DNA from: Candidatus Zipacnadum vermilionense
GTDB lineage: Bacteria; Armatimonadota; Zipacnadia; Zipacnadales; Zipacnadaceae
Direction of reading: 5' to 3'
Length of the DNA stretch: 34,404 nucleotides
Assembly (NCBI GenBank): GCA_029821755.1
Contig: JALGSV010000037.1
Span: 1 to 34,404, forward strand
Shown here: positions 5,201-20,253 of the stretch, in pieces
How the letters are laid out: the number at the start of each line of letters is the position of its first letter
Position numbering within the stretch: the first letter of the stretch is position 1
The notes under the pieces: generated by a model
Seen by the model: the letters and a program-made list of their open reading frames with translations, nothing else
The model's database searches: none
What the model was told of the DNA's origin: nothing
Position numbers and translations under genes: made by a program

Positions 5201-5804
5201 CTGGGCCGCCGCCGACAAGCTGGGGAAGAAGGGCGCCGGCTACCGGGCGGAGGTCTACGCCCTGGAGGGCGAGCCGACGGAGGCCGCTCTCGCCGGGATG
5301 CTCTCCCCGGCGGGCCTGCAGGCCACGGTCGGGACGCCGGTGGCTGCCCGCGTTCCCTACACCTTCTCGGCCCAGCAGGGCGCGGTTGCCCTCCACGTCA
5401 CCGACCTGAGCGGCATCCCCTTCGAGTGGATCCCGTTGGAGATTCGCGGCCTGCGCACCAACACCACCGCCTATTACCTGGAGAAGGGGACGGGCAAGAT
5501 CCGCCCGATCGGCGTGGACCCCGACGGGGTCGGCCGGGTCGTGCTCTGGCGCGGCAAGCGCAACGTCGACCTCTTCCTCGGCCACCCGATTCCCTGCTCG
5601 GACCCGGACCTGCGCTACGACGCCGTGCGCCTGGCGGACGGGACGTGGATTCTGGACGTGAACAACCCCACCGACCAGGACCGCAGCGTCCTCTTCTCCT
5701 GGAACCCGGCCGGGCCGGGCCGGGGGCCACTCCCCGCCAAGTTCACCCTCGCCCGCGGCGCCCGCGCCCAGTTCACCCTCAAGGAGGAACCTCATGCTTC
5801 CTGA
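2220..5804 (+). pseudogene. Large exported protein with amidotransferase-like and PHP-like parts, interrupted by in-frame TGA
   Basis: The frame from ATG 2220 (AGGAGG 8 bp upstream) to 5804 would encode about 1,194 residues. Residues 1-31 form a signal peptide ending VPVLAQP. Codon 53 (2376-2378) is TGA inside IIDEYRGAHEY-stop-NPLGLQEM, and the frame stays open for 1,141 more codons. Residues about 43-270 resemble a class I glutamine-amidotransferase/ThuA-like fold (FMNQGGGVLVVPPG). From about 393, GAHTTYSTGKGTVAEW and GLDFLVILDD resemble a PHP phosphoesterase domain whose metal-binding His are mostly lost. The rest looks like beta-sandwich. It overlaps the next gene by 11 bp. The TGA may be a fresh nonsense mutation (TGG to TGA is one step), a sequencing error or read-through. 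Function is unknown; carbohydrate-related export is inferred from the neighbours. Confidence 0.75.
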
Positions 5805-6750
5805 CCTTCGCATACTGCGCGGTATTTCCCCTCGGAACCCCCTCCTCCCGGCGTCCGCGCCGGGAGAGGGGGCAGGGGGTGAGGCGTCCCGGCCGCGGCG
5901 CGCTTACAAACATGCGAGGGCCAGTAGGAACACCGCGTGCCTCATCCTGGCCCTCCTCGCCGCCTCCGCCTCCGCCCAGGCGCCCGCGCCCTTCGTCAAC
6001 TCAGCGGGGATGAAGCTGGTGCCGATCAAAGCCGGTACGTACCTGTTCGCCGGCAAGCACCTTGACAACGTGTTCCTGTTCCCGCAGCCGGCCAGCTTCT
6101 CGGTGACGCTCGACCATGACTACTACCTGGGCACGACCGAGGTCACTCAGGCGCAATACCAGCAGGTCACGGGGACCAACCCCTCCGTTTTCCGCGCGCC
6201 GAATCGCCCGGTGGACAGCGTGAGCTGGGAGGAGGCCATGGAGTTCTGCCGCCGCCTGTCGGCGCTGGATGCGGAGAAGAAGGCGGGGCGGGTCTACTCG
6301 CTGCCCAGTGAGCGGCAGTGGCAATACGCCGCGCGGGCGGGGAGCGACCGGCTCTTCACCTACGGCAGCGACGACGAGACCAAAATCGCTACCGTTGCCG
6401 TCTGTCGGGACGCCTACACCGACGCGCAGCCGGCCGCGACCGCGCCGGTGGCCGGCAAGGAGCCGAACGCCTGGGGTCTGTACGACGTCCTGGGAAATGT
6501 CTACGAGTGGTGCCTGGACTGCCAGCCGCTGCTCGGCGCGCGGGGCGACTCCGTGGCGGCGAGCCTGCCGGGTAACTCCGGCAAGGACGTGGTGTGGGAC
6601 CAGGGGGAGGGCCGGGTGATTCTGGGCGGCGCCTGGGACAACGATTTTCGCGCCTGCAACCTGGCGGCGCGCTACGGCGTGTACCCGACGCGGAAGGCCA
6701 ACGACATCGGCTTCCGCGTGCGGTGCCTGGTAGGCGGGGACGCGAGTTAG
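5794..6750 (+). CDS. FGE-sulfatase (SUMF1)-fold exported protein
   Basis: A 318-residue protein with the formylglycine-generating-enzyme fold: GMKLVPIKAGTY, YYLGTTEVTQAQYQQVTGTN, RPVDSVSWEEAMEFCRRLS, YSLPSERQWQYAARAG, GLYDVLGNVYEWC, then VILGGAWDNDFRACNLAARY and IGFRVR. The Cys pair that does catalysis in true FGE is not present in the usual spacing (only one Cys near LAAR). It is therefore probably a binding or non-FGE member of the fold. The start at 5794 has AGGAGG upstream and overlaps the preceding stop, which implies translational coupling. The signal-peptide core (ACLILALLAASASAQA) lies at about residues 47-62, after an odd 46-residue leader that includes a palindromic repeat. Confidence 0.85.
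   Translation: MLPDLRILRGISPRNPLLPASAPGEGAGGEASRPRRAYKHARASRNTACLILALLAASASAQAPAPFVNSAGMKLVPIKAGTYLFAGKHLDNVFLFPQPASFSVTLDHDYYLGTTEVTQAQYQQVTGTNPSVFRAPNRPVDSVSWEEAMEFCRRLSALDAEKKAGRVYSLPSERQWQYAARAGSDRLFTYGSDDETKIATVAVCRDAYTDAQPAATAPVAGKEPNAWGLYDVLGNVYEWCLDCQPLLGARGDSVAASLPGNSGKDVVWDQGEGRVILGGAWDNDFRACNLAARYGVYPTRKANDIGFRVRCLVGGDAS
5839..5881. repeat. REP-like palindrome inside the leader of the SUMF1-fold gene
   Basis: TCCCGGCG (5846-5853), loop TCCG, CGCCGGGA (5858-5865), flanked by C-rich and G-rich runs (CCCCCTCC and GAGGGGGCAGGGGG). The form is that of dispersed intergenic palindromes of G+C-rich genomes. Here it is translated as part of the N-terminal leader. No second copy was seen in the window. 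Confidence 0.55.
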
Positions 6751-10984: not shown

Positions 10985-11302
10985 CTCCCACGTATGTCAC
11001 GGCCGCCCGGCGCTTAGCCGGGCTCAGAAGTTCCCCGACACCGCCTCCCTCATGATCGCCAGATCCAGGGCCTGGTGAGCGACGATCCGTTTGAGGCGGG
11101 CGTTCTTCTTTCCCAGCTCCCGCAACCGCTTGGCCTGATCGACGCGCAGCCCGCCATATTCCTTGCGCCAACCGTAGTAGGTCTGGTCGGTGATTCCTAG
11201 CTTCCGGCACACTAGGGGAATCGTGGCGCCCTGGGCCAGCTCCACCTCGGCCTGCCGCAACATGTCAATGATCTGCTCCGGCGCGTACTGCTTCCTCGGC
11301 AT
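10985..11302 (-). mobile_element. IS3-family insertion sequence remnant
   Basis: It contains an intact orfA and the start of orfB. After the orfA stop, the -1 frame reads ELLSPAKRRAAVTYV, the usual start of the IS3 orfB (LLSPARRRRAV). Similarity stops at about 10990. The DDE integrase core is gone and no terminal inverted repeats were identified, so the element cannot move by itself. Confidence 0.75.
11024..11302 (-). CDS. IS3-family transposase OrfA
   Basis: A 92-residue helix-turn-helix protein starting MPRKQYAPEQIIDMLRQAEV, then CRKLGITDQTYYGWRKEYGG, a Leu/Lys coil (AKRLRELGKKNARLKRIVA) and the ending AIMREAVSGNF. This is the standard OrfA of the IS3/IS911 type, which binds the element ends and dimerises through the coil. 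AAGGGG lies 7 bp before the ATG. In active elements a -1 frameshift near the end fuses it to OrfB; here only the OrfB stump remains. Confidence 0.92.
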   Translation of the reverse strand: MPRKQYAPEQIIDMLRQAEVELAQGATIPLVCRKLGITDQTYYGWRKEYGGLRVDQAKRLRELGKKNARLKRIVAHQALDLAIMREAVSGNF

Positions 11303-12733: not shown

Positions 12734-13390
12734 ATGACCACCAACAGTAGGGGCAGACGTCTCCCGGTGACCCTTACTCAAGCGGAGGCCGAGGCGCTGG
12801 TGGCACGGGTGAACCCCCGATCCACGACAGGGCTGCGCAACCGGGCCCTACTCGCCGTCATGCTGGGCGCGGGCCTGCGGGTGTCGGAGGTCGCCGCCCT
12901 CAAGCCGGCGGACCTGGATCTGGCCCGGGGCACCGTGCGAGTCAACCTCGGTAAGAGCGGCAAGGACCGGATCATCCCCGTCGACGGTGAGACGAGGGGA
13001 TGGCTGCAGGCGTGGGCGGAGAAGCGCACGGCCTTGGGGCTCAGCGGCCGCCAGCCGTTCTTCACCCGCCTCAAGGGCGGCACGGGGACCGGCCTGTCGG
13101 TGCGCGCTATCCAGGATTGGCTCGCCCGTCTCGGGGAGAGCGCTGGGCTGGACAAGCGCATCAGTCCCCACGTCCTGCGCCACACCTACGCCACGCGGAT
13201 GCTCGACCAGGGCCTGACCCTGCGCGACGTGCAGGAGTTACTTGGTCACGCGCATGTCGCCACCACGGAAATCTACACTCATGTCAGCGACGAGGCCCTG
13301 AGAGCCAAGATCCAGGCTCCCCGGGCCGACCTGGCCGCGAAGATTGACGCCTTGGAGAAGCAATTGGCGGAGCTGAGGGCGCAGCTCTAG
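12734..13390 (+). CDS. Tyrosine recombinase consisting of the catalytic domain only
   Basis: A 218-residue protein with all catalytic residues of the XerC/D-like family: Arg49 (GAGLRVSEV), Lys in GKSGKDR (74-77), His146-x-x-Arg149 (HVLRHTYATR), His172 (LLGHAHVATT) and Tyr181 (EIYTHV). The N-terminal SAM-like core-binding domain (about 100 residues) is missing. The ribosome site and promoter directly before the ATG show that this short form is the real product. A coiled-coil tail (KIDALEKQLAELRAQL) may give multimers. It could act with a partner protein that supplies DNA binding. It converges on the PC4-like gene, the two TAG stops sharing CTAG. Confidence 0.9.
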   Translation: MTTNSRGRRLPVTLTQAEAEALVARVNPRSTTGLRNRALLAVMLGAGLRVSEVAALKPADLDLARGTVRVNLGKSGKDRIIPVDGETRGWLQAWAEKRTALGLSGRQPFFTRLKGGTGTGLSVRAIQDWLARLGESAGLDKRISPHVLRHTYATRMLDQGLTLRDVQELLGHAHVATTEIYTHVSDEALRAKIQAPRADLAAKIDALEKQLAELRAQL

Positions 13391-13602
13391 TCAGGCTCCT
13401 CCTGTTCCAGCTTGGCACGTACAGCCCCCAGGAACGCCTCCCCGTCCGCGATCGGGATCACCACACCACGCCTCGTGGGGCGCCACTCGCCGGCGTCGTC
13501 CAGGTACCACACCCGCACGTCGACCCGAGACTGCCCACAGTACAAGGCCCGCGTGACACGCAGGGCGGAACGGGATGAAATTGGGATTGCATACGCTGGC
13601 AT
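13387..13602 (-). CDS. PC4/p15-like ssDNA-binding protein
   Basis: A 71-residue protein. RVDVRVWYLDDAGEWRPTRR then GVVIPIADGEAFLGAVRAKL follows the PC4 pattern (I-D-I-R-x-Y...G-E-W-x-P-t-R-K-G-V). PC4-fold proteins bind single-stranded DNA as dimers and have been found in bacteria and phages as helpers of replication or repair. Here the gene is the last in the minus-strand set after the primase-helicase and repeat array, which would suit a single-strand binding role. The Shine-Dalgarno is weak (GAGG, 12 bp before ATG). The assignment rests on the GEWRPTRRGV core. Confidence 0.7.
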   Translation of the reverse strand: MPAYAIPISSRSALRVTRALYCGQSRVDVRVWYLDDAGEWRPTRRGVVIPIADGEAFLGAVRAKLEQEEPD

Positions 13603-13734
13603 CGCTTATTGTACCTCGCGCGCGTATCTGTGTTTCCGGCGGCCGCGATGAGGGGTCGTTTCCCCCAGGACGCCTTGTTCCGCGGCAGCGCGCCGGGGAG
13701 ACCCTTCTGCCACTTTCCACAGCCACGACGGATC

Positions 13735-14004
13735 CTAGTGGCCCCCACACATCTCGGACGCCCAGGCGCGCTCCCAGTCATCTCTCCACTGCCCTGCACC
13801 GGCCATGTGCCCAGTCCACTCCCGCGGGGCTACGGAGCCCCGGTGGTACAGGCAGACCAAGGGGCCTCAGCCGTCCTCCCCCGGTCTGCCCGTCTCGGCC
13901 CGAACGTGTATCAAGTCCCCCCCTGGTAGGGGCTGCGGTGGGGCTGCGGTGGACCCGCAATGTCTCCCAGCGATCTTCACGATCTCCCCGGTCTCATTCA
14001 TCAT
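13735..14004 (-). pseudogene. Small protein gene with an in-frame TGA
   Basis: GGAGAG lies 5 bp before ATG-ATG, giving MMNETGEIVKIAGRHCGSTA and so on. Codon 46 (13867-13869) is TGA. The same frame then continues GPLVCLYHRGSVAPREWTGH and WRDDWERAWASEMCGGH to a TAG at 13735. Both halves look like natural protein (Trp, Cys and charged residues), so an 89-residue gene with one nonsense codon is the simplest reading. The alternative is a 45-residue protein followed by chance reading frame. No family is recognised; it lies between the repeat array and the PC4-like gene. Confidence 0.4.
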
Positions 14005-14046
14005 CGTCACTCTCCTATCAGGGTGAACGCCCGACTCTCAAGAACA

Positions 14047-14141
14047 GGTCAATCGAGTCAATCGTCAACCGAGTCAACCATCCGTGGGTAGACCCGATTG
14101 ACTCAGTAGACCCCTAGTCTTCAGTAGACTCGATTGACTTC
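14047..14141. repeat. Iteron-like array: three tandem 18-bp repeats plus inverted GTCAA motifs
   Basis: Three head-to-tail 18-mers begin at 14088, 14106 and 14124: GTAGACCCGATTGACTCA, GTAGACCCCTAGTCTTCA and GTAGACTCGATTGACTTC. Copies 1 and 3 match at 15 of 18 positions. Upstream, GTCAA occurs four times in the opposite sense (14048, 14057, 14064, 14073), and CGAGTCAATCG (14054-14064) is the reverse of the CGATTGACT core. The last copy touches the stop codon of the primase-helicase gene. An origin (iterons) or recombinase arm sites are the likely roles. Confidence 0.7.
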
Positions 14142-14142
14142 T

Positions 14143-16032
14143 CTACATAGGGAGCACCCGGCGGTAGGGAATCTCCCTCCCCTGCCGTTCCCCTGTCACT
14201 AGCAGTCCCTTCCGCACCAGGGCGCGAAGCTCTCGGTGCACCAGGGCCTTGTCCTTGCCAAGGGCGTCGGCGACCTCCTTACAGGATGCGGAACCGCCCG
14301 CCGCGTCTATCGCTTCCAGCACCTTCGCCTGGAGGCTGTCTACGCGGATCCCATCCGCTCCCTGAGCAAGCTGCCAAGTCAGGGTGACGGGGTCCCGCTT
14401 GATCGAGACCTCGAACTGGTCGATGTCGCGTCCCTCCAGGCAGAGGGTCCAGCCTCGACCTCCTCCCGTCTGCTCAAGGACCATGAAGCCGTCCGCCACG
14501 CCCGCTATCGCCGTGCTGCCGAGGATCTTAGAGCCCTCGTCACCGGTCCCGATCTTCGTCGTGTGGGTCACGACCAGTATGGGGGTACCGGTCTCAAGCG
14601 CTAGGCGTTGGAGTTCCGCGAGCGCGGCGCTCATTACCGCATAGTCGTTGAAGTCCTTCCCGCCACCCAAGAAGCGCGCGAGGGTGTCGATGACAACCAG
14701 GCGGTACTGTCGCTCGCGCAGCCGCCGGGCAAGCGCCCGCATTCCGCCCTTGTCGAAAACCGGCCATGACAACTCTATCTCGCAGTTCGCGTCCGTCGGC
14801 CACCCCTGGTTGCGCATCCGCCCCTGCAGGCGCTTCTTGTTGTCCTCCAGGCAGAGGTACAGTGCCGTGCCCTTCTCGGTATTCACCCCAAAGAGAGAGC
14901 CGCCACTGCTGACCGCGCCGGCGATCTGTAGGGACAGGACGGACTTACCTCTCTTGGGTCGGCCGGCGAGTACCGTTAGGCCCTCCGGAATGACGTCCTC
15001 AACGGCCCATCTTGTCGGCTCAAACTCGGCGGTGAGGAGGTCTGCTGCCGTCCAGGAGGTTCGCTGTGCTAGCCGCGCTGACGCTGCTTCCCCCGTCGAT
15101 CCCTGCAAGGCGCCAATGGCGGGGGACGGGGGCTGCCACTCGTGGGCGCTTGCTAGCAGACCTTGCATGTCCTCCGCGGTTCCGCCCCCCGCAAAGAAGT
15201 CCGCCGCGTCACCCTTCGGCCGCGGGTCCTCCCAAGCTATCCCCCGCGCTGGAATTCCCATGCCCGCGAGTCGCGCGCCGATCTCGTTCATGTGATCGGC
15301 GCCCTCGGGGTCTGCGTCGGGCCAGAGCGCCACGCGGTACGGTCGCAGGAACTCAAGTGCCGCGTGGCCGGGAATAGGGTTGCCAGCGCCTGTCACGGTC
15401 CCCACGGCCAGGAACCCATGCTCGGCCAAGGCGTCGCAGGCCTTCTCGCCCTCAACCACGATCACAAGCTGGCCGGGCGGGGCTTCGAGAAGGTCCGGGA
15501 GACGGTAGAAGGACAGGTCCGCCGTCTTCAGGCCGTGCAAGCCCGGCTTGCCGTCACGCCACCACTCAAACCGCTTGCCCGCCTGGCTCTCTTCGTTCAC
15601 GAACTCAATCCGAACGTGCTCCGCGACAGGGCTCCCCTCAGCGTCAAAGATGGGATACACCTGGCGCCCAGTCTCCCGCTCCCGGTCCTTCTTGCCCCGC
15701 TCGCCGCCGCTATCGTTCACGCCGACGCCCAGCATCCGGCCGAGGTCCTCCACGACCTCGGCAGTCAGGTTCTCCAGTTTGTTGCGCCTGAGGTAGAAAT
15801 CAATGATCGTCCCGTTGGCCTTACACCCGAAACACTTGAACCGTCCCGCGTATTGGCCTTCAATGGCGATCTTGAAGCTGGGGGTTGAGTCCGAATGGAA
15901 AGGGCAGAGGCCGACGAGGTGGTTGCCTTCCCGCTGGAGAAGGCCAGCGAAACCGGCGCGCGTGAAGGCGTGTTGGGGATCCGCTTGCGCAGCGGTCTTG
16001 ATCTGTTGGATTGACGATGGCTTCTGACGCAC
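14143..16032 (-). CDS. Primase-helicase fusion (CHC2 zinc finger, Toprim, RepA/AAA_25 ATPase)
   Basis: A 629-residue replication protein. A CHC2 zinc finger has Cys43, His46, Cys67 and Cys70 (LCPFHSDSTPSF, FKCFGCKANG). A Toprim domain has the catalytic Glu195 (VVEGEKACDAL) and DxD (WPDADPEG, 239-241). A RecA-type ATPase has Walker A GRPKRGKS (357-364), Walker B LVVIDT (445-450) and ILVVTHTTK. A winged-helix end (about 565-629) includes CKEVADALGKDKALVHREL. Such fusions prime and unwind plasmid, phage or integrative-element DNA. The start is a GTG with GAGGAG 5 bp upstream, 17 bp after the recombinase gene, so the two are likely co-translated. The 18-bp repeats lie directly after its stop. No key residue appears lost. 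Confidence 0.92.
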   Translation of the reverse strand: MRQKPSSIQQIKTAAQADPQHAFTRAGFAGLLQREGNHLVGLCPFHSDSTPSFKIAIEGQYAGRFKCFGCKANGTIIDFYLRRNKLENLTAEVVEDLGRMLGVGVNDSGGERGKKDRERETGRQVYPIFDAEGSPVAEHVRIEFVNEESQAGKRFEWWRDGKPGLHGLKTADLSFYRLPDLLEAPPGQLVIVVEGEKACDALAEHGFLAVGTVTGAGNPIPGHAALEFLRPYRVALWPDADPEGADHMNEIGARLAGMGIPARGIAWEDPRPKGDAADFFAGGGTAEDMQGLLASAHEWQPPSPAIGALQGSTGEAASARLAQRTSWTAADLLTAEFEPTRWAVEDVIPEGLTVLAGRPKRGKSVLSLQIAGAVSSGGSLFGVNTEKGTALYLCLEDNKKRLQGRMRNQGWPTDANCEIELSWPVFDKGGMRALARRLRERQYRLVVIDTLARFLGGGKDFNDYAVMSAALAELQRLALETGTPILVVTHTTKIGTGDEGSKILGSTAIAGVADGFMVLEQTGGGRGWTLCLEGRDIDQFEVSIKRDPVTLTWQLAQGADGIRVDSLQAKVLEAIDAAGGSASCKEVADALGKDKALVHRELRALVRKGLLVTGERQGREIPYRRVLPM

Positions 16033-16049
16033 CAGTCTCCTCGTGGTAC

Positions 16050-17132
16050 CTACTCCATGCTGAGGGCCTGCCCCGTGGATGCCTCCGGAGCGGCCGTACT
16101 AAGGTCAAGCTCCTCGAGCTGACCCGTCTCCTGCTGTGTCGCCCAGGGTAGCTTCTCGACCGCAGCGTTCTTCGTGGTGGTGTCCGAATGGAGGCAAATG
16201 CTTGTAGTACTTATGTTCGAGTGGCCTAGGAGGTGAGAGACGGTGGCGACGTCTACCCCGGCCAAGACGAGTTGGGTCGCGAAGGCGTGCCTCAAGCTGT
16301 GGGGCGTAAGTCCCAGACCCTCCAGCCCCGCGCGCGCTAACAGTCGCCTGAAGAGCCTGTAGAAGCCGTTGGTGCACAGACGCCCGCCCTCCCTGCCTGT
16401 CACCAGGGGCCCGGCGTGTGGTTGTCGGTCTTGGAGGCAAGCCTTGACCGTGGCTTGGGCCGCACGACACAGGGGTACGACTCGCTCCCGGCGCCCCTTG
16501 CCCATCACGCGGACTTGCTCGTATCCGGCGCTGAGATCCCCGACGTTCAAACCAAGGACCTCCGCGCGGCGCAGTCCGGCCATGAGCATCAGCGTGAGAA
16601 TGAGTCGCTCGCGGTCGTTGCGGCAGGCCGCCAGAAGGGCGCCGCATTGTTCTAGGCTCGGGACCTTCGGGAAGACGACTCGGCGTTTGGGGAGTTCCAG
16701 GCCAGCCACCGGGTTCCGCGTGATGATCCCCAGGTCGAGGAGGTACCGAAACCAGCCTCTTAGGGCGTATGCCCGCCTTCGGATCGAGGCAGGCGCGAGG
16801 TGGGCGAGTTGTCCTGCATACCGGTGTACGTGCTGGGGTAGGACTTGCTCGACGCAAGCAACGCCCTCCTCTTCGAGAAACCGGATGAGCAGAAGGGCAT
16901 CTTGCTCGTAGGCCTTGACCGTTCTCGGAGAGCAGTCGCGGTAGTCGGCAAGGTGCGTCAGGTACTGCCGGAGGGCTGAGTGCAGTGCGGTTCCCGTCGA
17001 ACAGGCCCTTGGAAGTGCTCCGTCGCCTCCGGCAGGAGACGGCGGGACAGGCGCCCTCTGGAGTTCGCTGGGCGCTCCCTCTTCGATTGGGACCGTCACC
17101 GCAGCGGGAGTGTCGGAAGTCGATACGCTCAT
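16050..17132 (-). CDS. Tyrosine recombinase with the catalytic Tyr replaced by Cys
   Basis: A 360-residue XerC/D-like protein. The core-binding domain lies at about residues 48-140 (SALRQYLTHLADYRDCSPRT) and the catalytic domain follows, with Arg188 (AGLRRAEV), Lys212 (GKGRRER), His278-x-x-Arg281 (HSLRHAFATQ) and His304 (LLGHSNIS). Where the family has IYxH the sequence is STTSICLHSD. Codon 313 is TGC (16194-16196), one base from TAC, and no Tyr lies nearby. Strand cleavage by the usual route is therefore not expected; DNA binding could remain. The start at 17132 is chosen for AGAGGTG before ATG; the frame is open to a GTG at 17228. The gene lies upstream of the primase-helicase in the same operon. 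Confidence 0.88.
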   Translation of the reverse strand: MSVSTSDTPAAVTVPIEEGAPSELQRAPVPPSPAGGDGALPRACSTGTALHSALRQYLTHLADYRDCSPRTVKAYEQDALLLIRFLEEEGVACVEQVLPQHVHRYAGQLAHLAPASIRRRAYALRGWFRYLLDLGIITRNPVAGLELPKRRVVFPKVPSLEQCGALLAACRNDRERLILTLMLMAGLRRAEVLGLNVGDLSAGYEQVRVMGKGRRERVVPLCRAAQATVKACLQDRQPHAGPLVTGREGGRLCTNGFYRLFRRLLARAGLEGLGLTPHSLRHAFATQLVLAGVDVATVSHLLGHSNISTTSICLHSDTTTKNAAVEKLPWATQQETGQLEELDLSTAAPEASTGQALSME

Positions 17133-17182
17133 GGGTGCACCTCTTGACGTACCTACGGCCCAGGAGCGGGCCGGGTAGCACA

Positions 17183-17269
17183 AAGCCGGAACCGAGGGCG
17201 CCAGTCGCCCGGATGGTTCCGGCTTCACTTACTCGGACCCCAAGGGGGTCCTTCCGCTAACGCGGAAGG
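17183..17269. repeat. Three hairpins upstream of the recombinase gene
   Basis: AAGCCGGAACC (17183-17193) pairs with GGTTCCGGCTT (17215-17225), with GGGCG/CGCCC nested inside. GGACCCC/GGGGTCC (17235-17251) has a 3-nt loop, and CCTTCCGC-TAAC-GCGGAAGG spans 17250-17269. They fill the gap between the short ORF and the recombinase start. No T run follows, so they may be operators, leader structures or recombination sites rather than terminators. Confidence 0.55.
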
Positions 17270-17288
17270 TCAGTTGTCGTTGACCGTG

Positions 17289-17483
17289 TTACAACAATGC
17301 CAGCTTGCCCTTGCCCGTGATCTTCAGATGGTATTCGGTCGGCGGCCGACCCGCTCGGACGGCTTCAATGATCAAGATGCGAGGCGTGTCTGTCGGCAGC
17401 AAGATCCGGGTGGCCCGGGAATCGACGCGGACCTCCTCACCGGGGCATTCGGACGCGAGAGTTGCACACATCTCGGTCCGCAT
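17289..17483 (-). CDS. Short protein of unknown function
   Basis: A 64-residue product from ATG 17483, or 82 from a GTG at 17537 that lies 6 bp after the stop of the zinc-finger gene. The body RILLPTDTPRILIIEAVRAG and RPPTEYHLKITGKGKLALL looks like a small beta-rich protein. The overlap-like spacing with the gene upstream suggests a shared transcript. No family is recognised, and no strong ribosome site marks either start. Confidence 0.45.
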   Translation of the reverse strand: MRTEMCATLASECPGEEVRVDSRATRILLPTDTPRILIIEAVRAGRPPTEYHLKITGKGKLALL

Positions 17484-17543
17484 GTCGCTCGCCGGCGTCC
17501 TGACTGGCTGCGCTCCATGGCGTTGGTCGTGTTCCACAGCAGT

Positions 17544-18569
17544 CTACTTCTCCTTGTGCTGCCGGGGCGTTTGTCCCGCGTCCCCATGCTGTTGACCGCC
17601 TTGGCTGCCACGTCGGGCGCGGTAACGGTGCTGCTTGTGCGCGTTTGCGCACTTCGGGCTGCAGTGATCTTGGCGCGAGTTCTCTTTCTTGAACAGCTTC
17701 TGGCATTTCGGATGGGCACACCGAGTGTAGGTGTCGCTGCGGTCTACAGCAGCTGCAAGCTGATCCCATGCCCAGGTTACTGAGTTGGGAAGGCAATCCA
17801 GCATTATCTTGGTCACCCGGAAGGTCTCGAAGCCCACAGCGCCAAGCAAGACTACTAGCCGTCGCTGGCTGTGACTGGTGTTGCCAGCAAACCAGTCGAC
17901 GCTCTTCAGCGCGCTCCTCGCTTCCTGTACGACGGGGGCACCATTCTGGCTTTCTGACAGAGCTGCTGACAGATCGGACCTTGACGCCTCCAGTAGCAGC
18001 GCGTCAAACACTCGCCGAAGGGCGGCTTGGTTGTGGCGCATGAGCTGCATCGCGGTCTCCGGCGTCAAGGGCATCCAGTAGTACATTGCACCGTCTTGGT
18101 CGTGCAGTGCTACTTCCAGGGGCCGGCGATCTTCAGGAGCCTTCTGGAATCCTGGTTCCACGGAGGACTCCCACACATCCCTGTTGAAAGCCCTCACCAG
18201 GTCCGTCGATGCAGGGTCCACCGGCCTGAATGGAGCGTGAGGTTCGACGTACAGCGCGGCCCGACCACGCACGCTCCAGGTCAAAGGCCAGTTGCAGAAG
18301 AGGAGGAAGTCGTCGTCCACGAATCCTTGCAGTCCAGCGGGCAGCCCCCGACGAACGAATTCCGCGACCGCGGGGAGGTTTGCTGGACTTAGGTCAAGCT
18401 CGTAGAAGTCAAGAAGAAACGTCGGCCACCCGCCTGCAACGCGGGGGGAGCCTGATTCGCGGTAGAAGGCTGCCAGCACGTCGTCGTCGCCCGTGTCAAC
18501 GAGGTCTCCGACGGGAGGCGGATACGGTCCATCCCACTGCGGAAGTAACTTATCGGCTTGGTTACTCAT
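17544..18569 (-). CDS. CGNR-like zinc-finger protein
   Basis: A 341-residue protein. The C-terminal finger has Cys284, Cys289, Cys303 and Cys307 in RCAHPKCQKLFKKENSRQDH then CSPKCANAHKQHRYRARR. This is the CGNR-type pattern (C-x4-C...yC-s-x-x-C-a-x-x-x-x-x-R-y-R-x-R) found at the end of bacterial transcription regulators. The front (1-280) has no recognised fold; it is acidic and Trp/Leu-rich. A DNA-binding role is likely. The gene has its own promoter, which puts the transcription start only 2-4 nt before the ATG. Inverted repeats around that promoter suggest self-regulation. It lies between the two longer recombinase genes. Confidence 0.65.
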   Translation of the reverse strand: MSNQADKLLPQWDGPYPPPVGDLVDTGDDDVLAAFYRESGSPRVAGGWPTFLLDFYELDLSPANLPAVAEFVRRGLPAGLQGFVDDDFLLFCNWPLTWSVRGRAALYVEPHAPFRPVDPASTDLVRAFNRDVWESSVEPGFQKAPEDRRPLEVALHDQDGAMYYWMPLTPETAMQLMRHNQAALRRVFDALLLEASRSDLSAALSESQNGAPVVQEARSALKSVDWFAGNTSHSQRRLVVLLGAVGFETFRVTKIMLDCLPNSVTWAWDQLAAAVDRSDTYTRCAHPKCQKLFKKENSRQDHCSPKCANAHKQHRYRARRGSQGGQQHGDAGQTPRQHKEK

Positions 18570-18613
18570 GCTATTGGCACTTTACCACAAGTTTAGTAAC
18601 CAGTCAATAGCAT
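18560..18613 (-). promoter_or_regulatory. Promoter and candidate operator of the zinc-finger gene
   Basis: On the minus strand TTGACT (18602-18607), 17-bp spacer, TAAAGT (18579-18584). Transcription would begin near 18572, with the ATG at 18569, so the mRNA would be nearly leaderless. Two inverted repeats surround it: GGTTACT (18560-18566) with AGTAACC (18595-18601), and ATGCTATTG (18568-18576) with CAATAGCAT (18605-18613). A protein bound there would cover -35, -10 and the start codon. Confidence 0.65.
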
Positions 18614-18669
18614 AAGATGGTTATTTACTTGCCGAGCATCACGGTTCTTTTGCACACCGGCCGTGTGCG

Positions 18670-19584
18670 TTACCCCCCTGCCGCCGACGGGAAGTTCAGC
18701 AGCGGATGGCTTGCCACGGCATTTCGCAGCTCGGTTCCGCTGACGCTCAGATAGATCGCCGTGGTGTCCAGACGGCTGTGCCCTAGGAGCTTCTGGATTT
18801 CCAGGAGGCTTGCGCTCCCGCTCTGCAGCAGCAGCGTGGCCATGCTGTGCCGCAGCATGTGCAGGTGGGCCTTGTCCGCCTCGATGCCGCTGGCCGCCAG
18901 GATGCCTCGCCAGATGCGCTGCATCCCCGAGGGGTAGATGCGGTTGCCGTGGAAGGTAGTGAACAGGTAGTCGTGCGCGCACGCCGGACGAAACTCCAGC
19001 CAGTCGGCCACAGCGTCCACCACCTCATCCACCAGGGGGATCGCTCGGTACTTGCTCCCCTTCCCCTTGACCACCACGGGCTTGTCTTTCAGGCACACGT
19101 CGGTAAGGTGCAGACCGATCAGTTCGCCCCGGCGCATGCCGGTGAAGATCAGCATGGACATCATCGCGTAGTTGCGCAGGGCACAGCGAGCGGTGCGGTT
19201 CTGCTGGGCGCCGTCGAGGATCTGTTGGAGCACGTCCTTGTTAAGGTACCGGGGTATCCCACGCTGCTGACGAGGAACCGAGACGGGGCTGACCGGATCG
19301 CCCTGGGCGACGCCGATCTTCTGCAGGTACGACCAGAAGCTGCGCAGGGCGTACAGGTGGCGAGCGACGGTGTTGTTGACAAGGCCGCGGTGGTGCATGG
19401 AGATCACCCATTCGCGGACTAGGGTCGTGGTCACCTCGGAGGGCTCAGGGGAGACGCCCTGCTCGACGAGGAACTGGGAGAGTTAGTGGAGATCGTGGCG
19501 GTAGGAGCGGGCGGTGAGGGGGCTACAGCCGAGTTCGGCCTCCAGGTAAACCGCAAAATCCCGGACAAGTAGGTCTAGAAGCAT
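18670..19584 (-). pseudogene. Tyrosine recombinase with a nonsense codon in its N-terminal domain
   Basis: From ATG 19584 the frame would give 304 residues, the usual XerC/D length. It begins MLLDLLVRDFAVYLEAELGC, then SPLTARSYRHDLH, and codon 34 is TAA (19483-19485). The same frame continues LSQFLVEQGVSPEPSEV and then the whole catalytic domain: GMRRGEL (Arg), VKGKGSKYR (Lys), HMLRHSMAT (His, Arg), LLGHSRLDTT (His) and AIYLSV (Tyr). A restart at ATG 19434 would give 254 residues lacking half the core-binding domain. It is the gene nearest to rnpB, the place expected for an integrase next to its att site. Either it is dead, it restarts, or the stop is a sequencing error. Confidence 0.85.
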
Positions 19585-19591
19585 GGGGTTT

Positions 19592-19614
19592 AGCACACAC
19601 CTTTCTTGTGTGCT
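19592..19614 (-). repeat. Hairpin in the leader of the rnpB-proximal recombinase gene
   Basis: AGCACACA (19592-19599) and TGTGTGCT (19607-19614) form a perfect 8-bp stem. On the minus strand the loop is AGAAAGG, the only Shine-Dalgarno-like run before the ATG at 19584, so the hairpin could control translation or be an operator. Confidence 0.5.
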
Positions 19615-19662
19615 GCCCCTTGCGAAGACCGGTCACTTGGTCCGGGATCAGGCCGGTTCCCC

Positions 19663-19710
19663 GGAAAGTGGGTACATAAGCCTAGTAATGGAGCTTATGT
19701 TACCCACTTT
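19663..19710. other. Inverted repeat matching the rnpB 3' end, candidate attachment site
   Basis: AAAGTGGGTACATAAGC (19665-19681) and GCTTATGTTACCCACTTT (19693-19710) are inverted copies with one bulged base and an 11-bp centre. The left arm with flanks (19663-19682) matches the terminal 20 bases of rnpB (19748-19767) at 17 positions, in the same sense. The two lie 85 bp apart. Two inverted arms around a short centre is the layout of a tyrosine-recombinase core site. No T run follows, so it is a poor terminator for rnpB. Confidence 0.65.
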
Positions 19711-19746
19711 AGGGAAAACCGCATGAAATTCACCGAAAATAGGCCT

Positions 19747-20253
19747 CGGAGAGTGGGTCTATAAGCCGAATTCTGTACCCGGGGGTGCCGGGTGGCAGCC
19801 ATTTCTCTGGGGGTGCCGCTGGGCTTCCCACTTGCGGCCAACCCGGAAGTCAGGGGGCGGGCCACCCCTGCCCCCTCGCTCCCTGACCCCTCCCGCCTCC
19901 CGCTGGCTTCAGCATCAAGCCGCCTGCTCAGCGTGAGTGCGGTCAGGGAGCGAGAGGGCGCTTCCCTATTAGGCCTTGCTCCGAGCGGGGTTTGGCCGGC
20001 CGTCGCGTCTCCGCGACGCCGGTGAGCTCTTACCTCACCATTTCACCCTTACCGGGACCCGTGGGCCGCAGCTACGCCCTTTTGAGACGCGCCGCCTGCC
20101 CCGGGCTTGCGGCTCTACGCCGCCCCCGGCGGTATGTTTCTGTTCCACTGGCCGTCGGGTTGCCCCGCCTGGCATTTCGCCAGCGCTCTGCCCTGCGGAG
20201 TTCGGACTTTCCTCACCGGCTAGCGCCGGTGCGGCTGCCCGACCCACTCTCCG
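19747..20253 (-). ncRNA. rnpB: RNase P RNA, bacterial type A
   Basis: The catalytic RNA of ribonuclease P, which matures tRNA 5' ends. The minus strand shows the universal blocks: GAGGAAAGTCCGAACTCC near the 5' end (P4 strand and P5), GGTAAGGGTGAAATGGTGAG then GTAAGAGCTCACC in the specificity domain, and ACAGAATTCGGCTTATAG near the 3' end. Helix P1 closes the molecule: CGGAGAGTGGGT (5') with ACCCACTCTCCG (3'), 12 perfect pairs. About 507 nt is long for type A; the extra length is G+C-rich and lies in the variable part at about 19790-19960. A promoter lies just upstream. The element described above abuts the 3' end. Confidence 0.97.

Follow-up and report, generated by a model that had tools for sequence, protein, structure and literature searches.

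The window analyzed here, a whole contig of 34,404 bp (C28), belongs to a 4.39-Mb genome in 115 contigs (G000), whose order includes a candidate division WS1 MAG (PXBW01000223.1); 41 genomes of this order were searchable, and all the data are MAG contigs. Leftwards from rnpB, the minus strand carries recC, a CGNR zinc-finger gene, recB, a primase-helicase gene, a repeat cluster and a PC4 gene, followed by recA on the plus strand, where recA, recB and recC are labels for three tyrosine recombinases and do not denote the RecA or RecBCD proteins. All the parts of this block named in an earlier note on the same DNA were recovered with Rfam, Pfam, and TRF, with two exceptions in quality, namely the recC frame and the tandem repeats. 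A 46-bp palindrome between rnpB and recC was absent from that note. The features are the following:

12734..13390, plus strand: recA, a short tyrosine recombinase of 218 aa that has just the catalytic domain and converges on PC4 (PF00589; own clade)
13387..13602, minus strand: PC4-type ssDNA-binding protein, 71 aa (PF02229, 32.7 bits; PC4 is also beside a helicase in G007:C446 and near a helicase in G006:C56)
14047..14139, no strand: four near-copies of GTCAAYCGAGTC, two per orientation, a weak iteron or operator candidate (TRF)
14143..16032, minus strand: primase-helicase, 629 aa, with CHC2 zinc finger, RepA-like AAA_25 and C-terminal winged helix (Pfam; PHROG DNA primase/helicase)
16050..17228, minus strand: recB, second tyrosine recombinase, nucleophile Tyr changed to Cys (PF00589, alignment)
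17544..18569, minus strand: CGNR zinc-finger protein, 341 aa, possible regulator (PF11706, 26 bits against a cut-off of 24)
18670..19584, minus strand: recC, Xer-derived integrase, broken by a TAA, catalytic residues kept (PF00589, alignment)
19665..19710, no strand: 46-bp palindrome, AAAGTGGGTACATAAGC-N11-GCTTATGTTACCCACTTT, one arm resembling the rnpB tail
19746..20250, minus strand: rnpB, RNase P RNA, class A, whose 3' end is the putative attachment site (Rfam RF00010, 213 bits)
19748..19780, minus strand: attB-like core inside rnpB, whose right arm and spacer are found again at junctions of elements in relatives and at G000:C57:9275

Recombinases and replication genes beside rnpB

The maximum-likelihood tree separates the resident Xers and the three recombinases recA, recB and recC into four groups, with bootstrap support of 100 for each of the three recombinase groups and 93/88 for the Xers. 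The frames of recA and the primase-helicase are open. The earlier reading of the gene set has to be corrected for recC, which is not intact in the window: its frame starts with an ATG at 19584 and meets an in-frame TAA at 19483-19485, cutting off the start of the core-binding domain (the called ORF is 18670-19434); in G026, recC is frameshifted. The claim that one of the three recombinases lacks its nucleophile was borne out, as recB has a Cys codon (TGC, 16194-16196) where all the aligned homologues (15/15) have Tyr, and a G007 recB fragment, 67% identical, also keeps this Tyr. If these bases are right, neither recC nor recB of this element would be able to mediate its integration or excision, and the copy in the window looks dead; since they come from MAG contigs, the TAA and the Cys could also be sequence errors. 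Short recA-like recombinase genes are found on four contigs of G029 (C15, C147, C158 and C237; L269, L275-L277), cut by contig ends in three of them, which suggests a multi-copy mobile unit.

A primase-helicase combining CHC2 and RepA-like parts is what an autonomous replicon would carry; its Toprim motifs were seen by eye, without a Pfam call. PC4 and SSB bind single-stranded DNA, and a replication role for them therefore fits. The role of the CGNR protein is a guess, since it has no PHROG or PADLOC match; it has no homologue in 60 relatives and occupies the place where relatives have an unrelated protein of ~680 aa. The iterons proposed in the earlier note are a weak candidate: the array (TRF score 60, 2.9 copies, 69% match), whose four near-copies lie at 14048-14139, falls short of what would be called iterons, and the GTCAAYCGAGTC motif shows no enrichment over the whole window. 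Conjugation genes were not detected among the window proteins scanned with Pfam, which are a subset of the ORFs, the far part of the element lying outside the window. The left flank encodes an FGE-sulfatase domain protein (5794-6750), similar ones being found near recB in G028:C188 and inside the G006:C11 element. The GC skew changes sign near the block (15000-20000), from negative on the left to positive on the right, which may only reflect gene orientation.

Copies of the rnpB 3' end at other junctions

The attB-like core consists of a left arm, GGGTACAGAA (19771-19780), the spacer TTCGGC (19765-19770) and a right arm, TTATAGACCCACTCTCC (19748-19764). In 12 order-mates, the start of a recC-clade integrase gene lies about 100-210 bp beyond the rnpB 3' end, and the two genes share a strand; the 162 bp between rnpB and the recC start in the window correspond to the arrangement of an RNA-gene 3'-end integrase. 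When recC-family genes are not at rnpB, nearly all have, upstream and at a similar distance, a 17-bp copy of the rnpB 3' arm with the preceding 6-bp spacer. The motif GTGGGTNNATAAGC was discarded as a genome-wide search pattern because its matches were mostly due to chance, and a longer tail pattern was used instead. In total, 35 copies of the rnpB tail with a plausible spacer lie elsewhere in these genomes; for 26 of them, a recC-family gene of the same orientation is no more than 700 bp away, and nine have no adjoining recC. A second junction is present in the host genome itself (C57:9275); its spacer is TTCGGC, and the recC-family gene after it is truncated. Just before this junction are type I-C cas genes (Cas3, Cas5, Cas8c/Csd1; G000:C57:545-9295, L248), which may be cargo of an rnpB element.

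The first two bases of the spacer, which were outside the search pattern, vary between genomes (CT, TT, TC, CC). In all 13 genomes with a comparable rnpB, every away-copy read matches the 6-bp spacer of its own genome's rnpB, a comparison that leaves out some matches with up to three mismatches (permutation p 1.6e-4 for the first ten genomes). The spacer is CTCGGC in G003, G006, G008, G009, G033 and G035, TTCGGC in G000, G016, G017 and G026, TCCGGC in G007 and G024, and CCCGGC in G025. Kinship alone does not explain this identity, as three spacer types occur within the window's own family. Two tail copies with differing spacers were found in G031, where the rnpB was not found, and a three-mismatch match in G000:C104 lacks a spacer and was set aside as chance. 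Because the tail copies at element junctions carry the spacer of their own genome's rnpB, the rnpB end can be interpreted as a dif-like attB (arm-6-arm), and the suggestion that rnpB serves as insertion target is supported.

The bases preceding the spacer are ACAGAA or ACAAAA at rnpB and mostly ..ATAA, CTAA or GTAA at the other junctions, which we read as the end of the preceding element. At G006:C56, the junction has the form of an inverted repeat (14-6-14, two mismatches), similar in its arm-spacer-arm anatomy to the dif site, which is 11-6-11 in E. coli (PMC5357621). The 46-bp palindrome is a putative recC-binding or accessory att site.

A complete unit of 10.9 kb lies between two rnpB-tail junctions in G006:C11 (69141-80015; L229:3135-14036), containing, among others, recC, a predicted orphan methyltransferase and a SIR2-HerA defence pair. 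The gene-end repeat is therefore present at both ends of this unit, whereas the far copy is absent from the window: no far junction was detected within 19.7 kb, and position-weight scans gave only two sites, beside rnpB. The far part of this element may have been disturbed by an insertion sequence, an IS3-type transposase first-frame gene being located in the left flank (11024-11302). Regarding an empty site, a search of other loci for the ORFs that follow recC-less rnpB genes gave no clean allele pair in close relatives; G008 looks like a remnant instead of an empty site. The rnpB of many relatives is near a contig end, as expected if its tail is repeated, which also hides arrays. In G035:C96 (L128:500-1330), rnpB appears to be in two matching parts, separated by about 420 additional bases.

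In rnpB, the right arm forms the 3' strand of helix P1, and element-borne arms pair with the host 5' strand at 9-11 of the 11 P1 positions. In G006, the present rnpB arm, GACACACTCTCC, has 9 of its 11 positions paired, a poorer pairing than that of most element arms in this genome. It agrees with the arms found in another family (G033, G039), where the 5' strands carry a compensating change. The simplest reading is that the G006 rnpB end may have been imported with an element.

Gene order in relatives and competing interpretations

The possibility, raised in the earlier note, that the homologues of these genes never sit together does not hold in the relatives. In G030:C127, recC is followed by a 686-aa protein, recB and a CHC2/AAA primase, and in G006:C56 by a 683-aa protein, recB, a DnaB-like helicase, SSB and a PC4-like protein; G007:C446 has a 668-aa relative, a DnaB-like helicase, PC4, recA and a serine recombinase. 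At rnpB itself, G038:C30 presents recC, cargo, recB, a Prim-Pol and a recA-like gene. In G006, G038, G003 and G030, recB is downstream of recC in the same orientation, and further loci have recB followed by a large serine recombinase.

We consider it probable that the block represents the rnpB-proximal portion of an integrated replicon, probably immobile now, combining a replication module with a recC family that recombines at the rnpB 3' end and lets elements stack there. The description given previously, an integrative replicon or its remains, is in agreement with our results, and "remains" is apt, given the disabling changes present in recC and recB, two of the three recombinases. From what the sequences allow, recC would recombine an element-borne site with the dif-like site at the rnpB 3' end (ACAGAA, the 6-bp spacer and the right arm). 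The exchange would take place inside the spacer, leaving the element's own right arm on rnpB and rebuilding the P1 helix, with the old rnpB arm moved to the far end of the element. Further elements could enter at the rebuilt rnpB end, generating tandem arrays. recB, a primase and/or helicase and the ssDNA-binding proteins (PC4, SSB) would constitute a module for autonomous replication or maintenance, with recA next in some elements; the convergent recA may be a separate insertion.

It is unlikely that unrelated mobile pieces, carrying recC, recB with the primase, and recA, respectively, landed successively near rnpB and never worked together. The convergence of recA and its seemingly multiple copies in G029, the presence of recB with serine recombinases and far from recC, and a CGNR protein unique to the host genome among 61 would all be compatible with such a history, but the recC-X-recB-helicase order recurs in G030 and G006, helicase-PC4-recA in G007, and the shared orientation of recC and recB in the four genomes listed above also argues against it.

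Much less probable is that recC and the palindrome constitute a resident Xer/dif system with a single recombinase, comparable to XerS/difSL or XerH/difH, which resolves chromosome dimers and lies beside rnpB by chance, among unrelated neighbouring genes. The PDB proteins nearest to recC are XerD and XerA, and recC adjoins rnpB in many order-mates, just as the XerS and XerH genes adjoin their dif sites (PMC5357621). However, the host genome has two other Xer proteins that group with the Xers of relatives, while recC belongs to a clade apart, is multi-copy in several genomes with its own site per copy, is broken or frameshifted as described, and is followed by recB and a helicase in the same order in other genomes. 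Finally, an integron-like platform, with recC as integron integrase and the sites as attI and attC with gene cassettes, has hardly any probability: an integrase beside a fixed site and repeated sites in arrays recall it, but recC reaches 60 bits against a cut-off of 265 (integrase_gron), no arrays of sites sharing a single recombinase were seen, and most site copies have their own recC, indicating integrase-carrying elements and not cassettes.

Relation to known elements and implications

The integrated replicon that we favour is of an already known kind, the integrative elements in RNA-gene 3' ends, which classically land in the ends of tRNA and tmRNA genes; what seems to be new is the rnpB target. 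In the open full-text literature, outside which most subscription journals fall, we found no rnpB-targeted element, rnpB being present there only as gene, marker, promoter or in references. The islands and IMEs of tRNA and tmRNA 3' ends share with these elements a tyrosine integrase at the RNA-gene 3' end, the restoration of the gene end, tandem insertions and cargo, but here the target is rnpB, the integrase is of a short Xer type, and the site is dif-like (arm-6-arm). The Xer/dif systems (XerCD, XerS/difSL, XerH/difH; PMC5357621) have in common the protein family, the 6-bp centre and a recombinase gene beside the site; in contrast, the recC of the rnpB elements is multi-copy, carried on elements and separate from the resident Xers, and its site is embedded in rnpB. 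The IMEX elements, which use the host XerCD, present a dif-like attachment site and the same dimeric geometry, whereas the rnpB elements have a recombinase gene of their own and are targeted to rnpB rather than dif. The GInts (ginABCD), whose cargo ranges from 2.5 kb to at least 70 kb, and RIT elements also have several tyrosine recombinases per element (PMC5385486 for GInts). However, the three recombinase genes are here dispersed, split by CGNR, primase-helicase and PC4, with a replication module and a fixed rnpB target; membership in either group was rejected, as recC, recB and recA are not contiguous and form no single operon or trio.

At 80 loci in named genomes, no rnpB was found beside recC relatives using a profile trained on the rnpB of this order, although this profile could overlook strongly divergent rnpB genes and did not pick up the short tail in L135. 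No free forms were retrieved from viral contigs by the primase or by the exact tail pattern; plasmids and phages gave distant partial matches only, and identity to recC does not exceed 38% among its relatives in viral contigs.

The broader proposal, which we regard as evenly balanced, is that these elements constitute a new family of integrative replicons of the candidate division WS1 lineage, in which the conserved rnpB 3' core would be a dif-like attB, tandem arrays would form, some elements would carry defence cargo, and the three clade-specific recombinases would be recurring parts. Since each integration would swap the 3' strand of P1, such elements would exchange ribozyme ends between species and could leave a mismatched P1, as seemingly in G006. 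An essential ribozyme RNA, that of RNase P, would then be added to the landing sites of integrative elements, together with a dif-like core and an Xer-derived integrase. The contig-breaking repeats of rnpB ends could affect rnpB annotation in such MAGs, and the elements would offer a handle on the mobile gene pool of a WS1-containing lineage, defence systems included. It also becomes possible to test how one strand of an essential RNA helix may be rewritten by an element without the death of the host.
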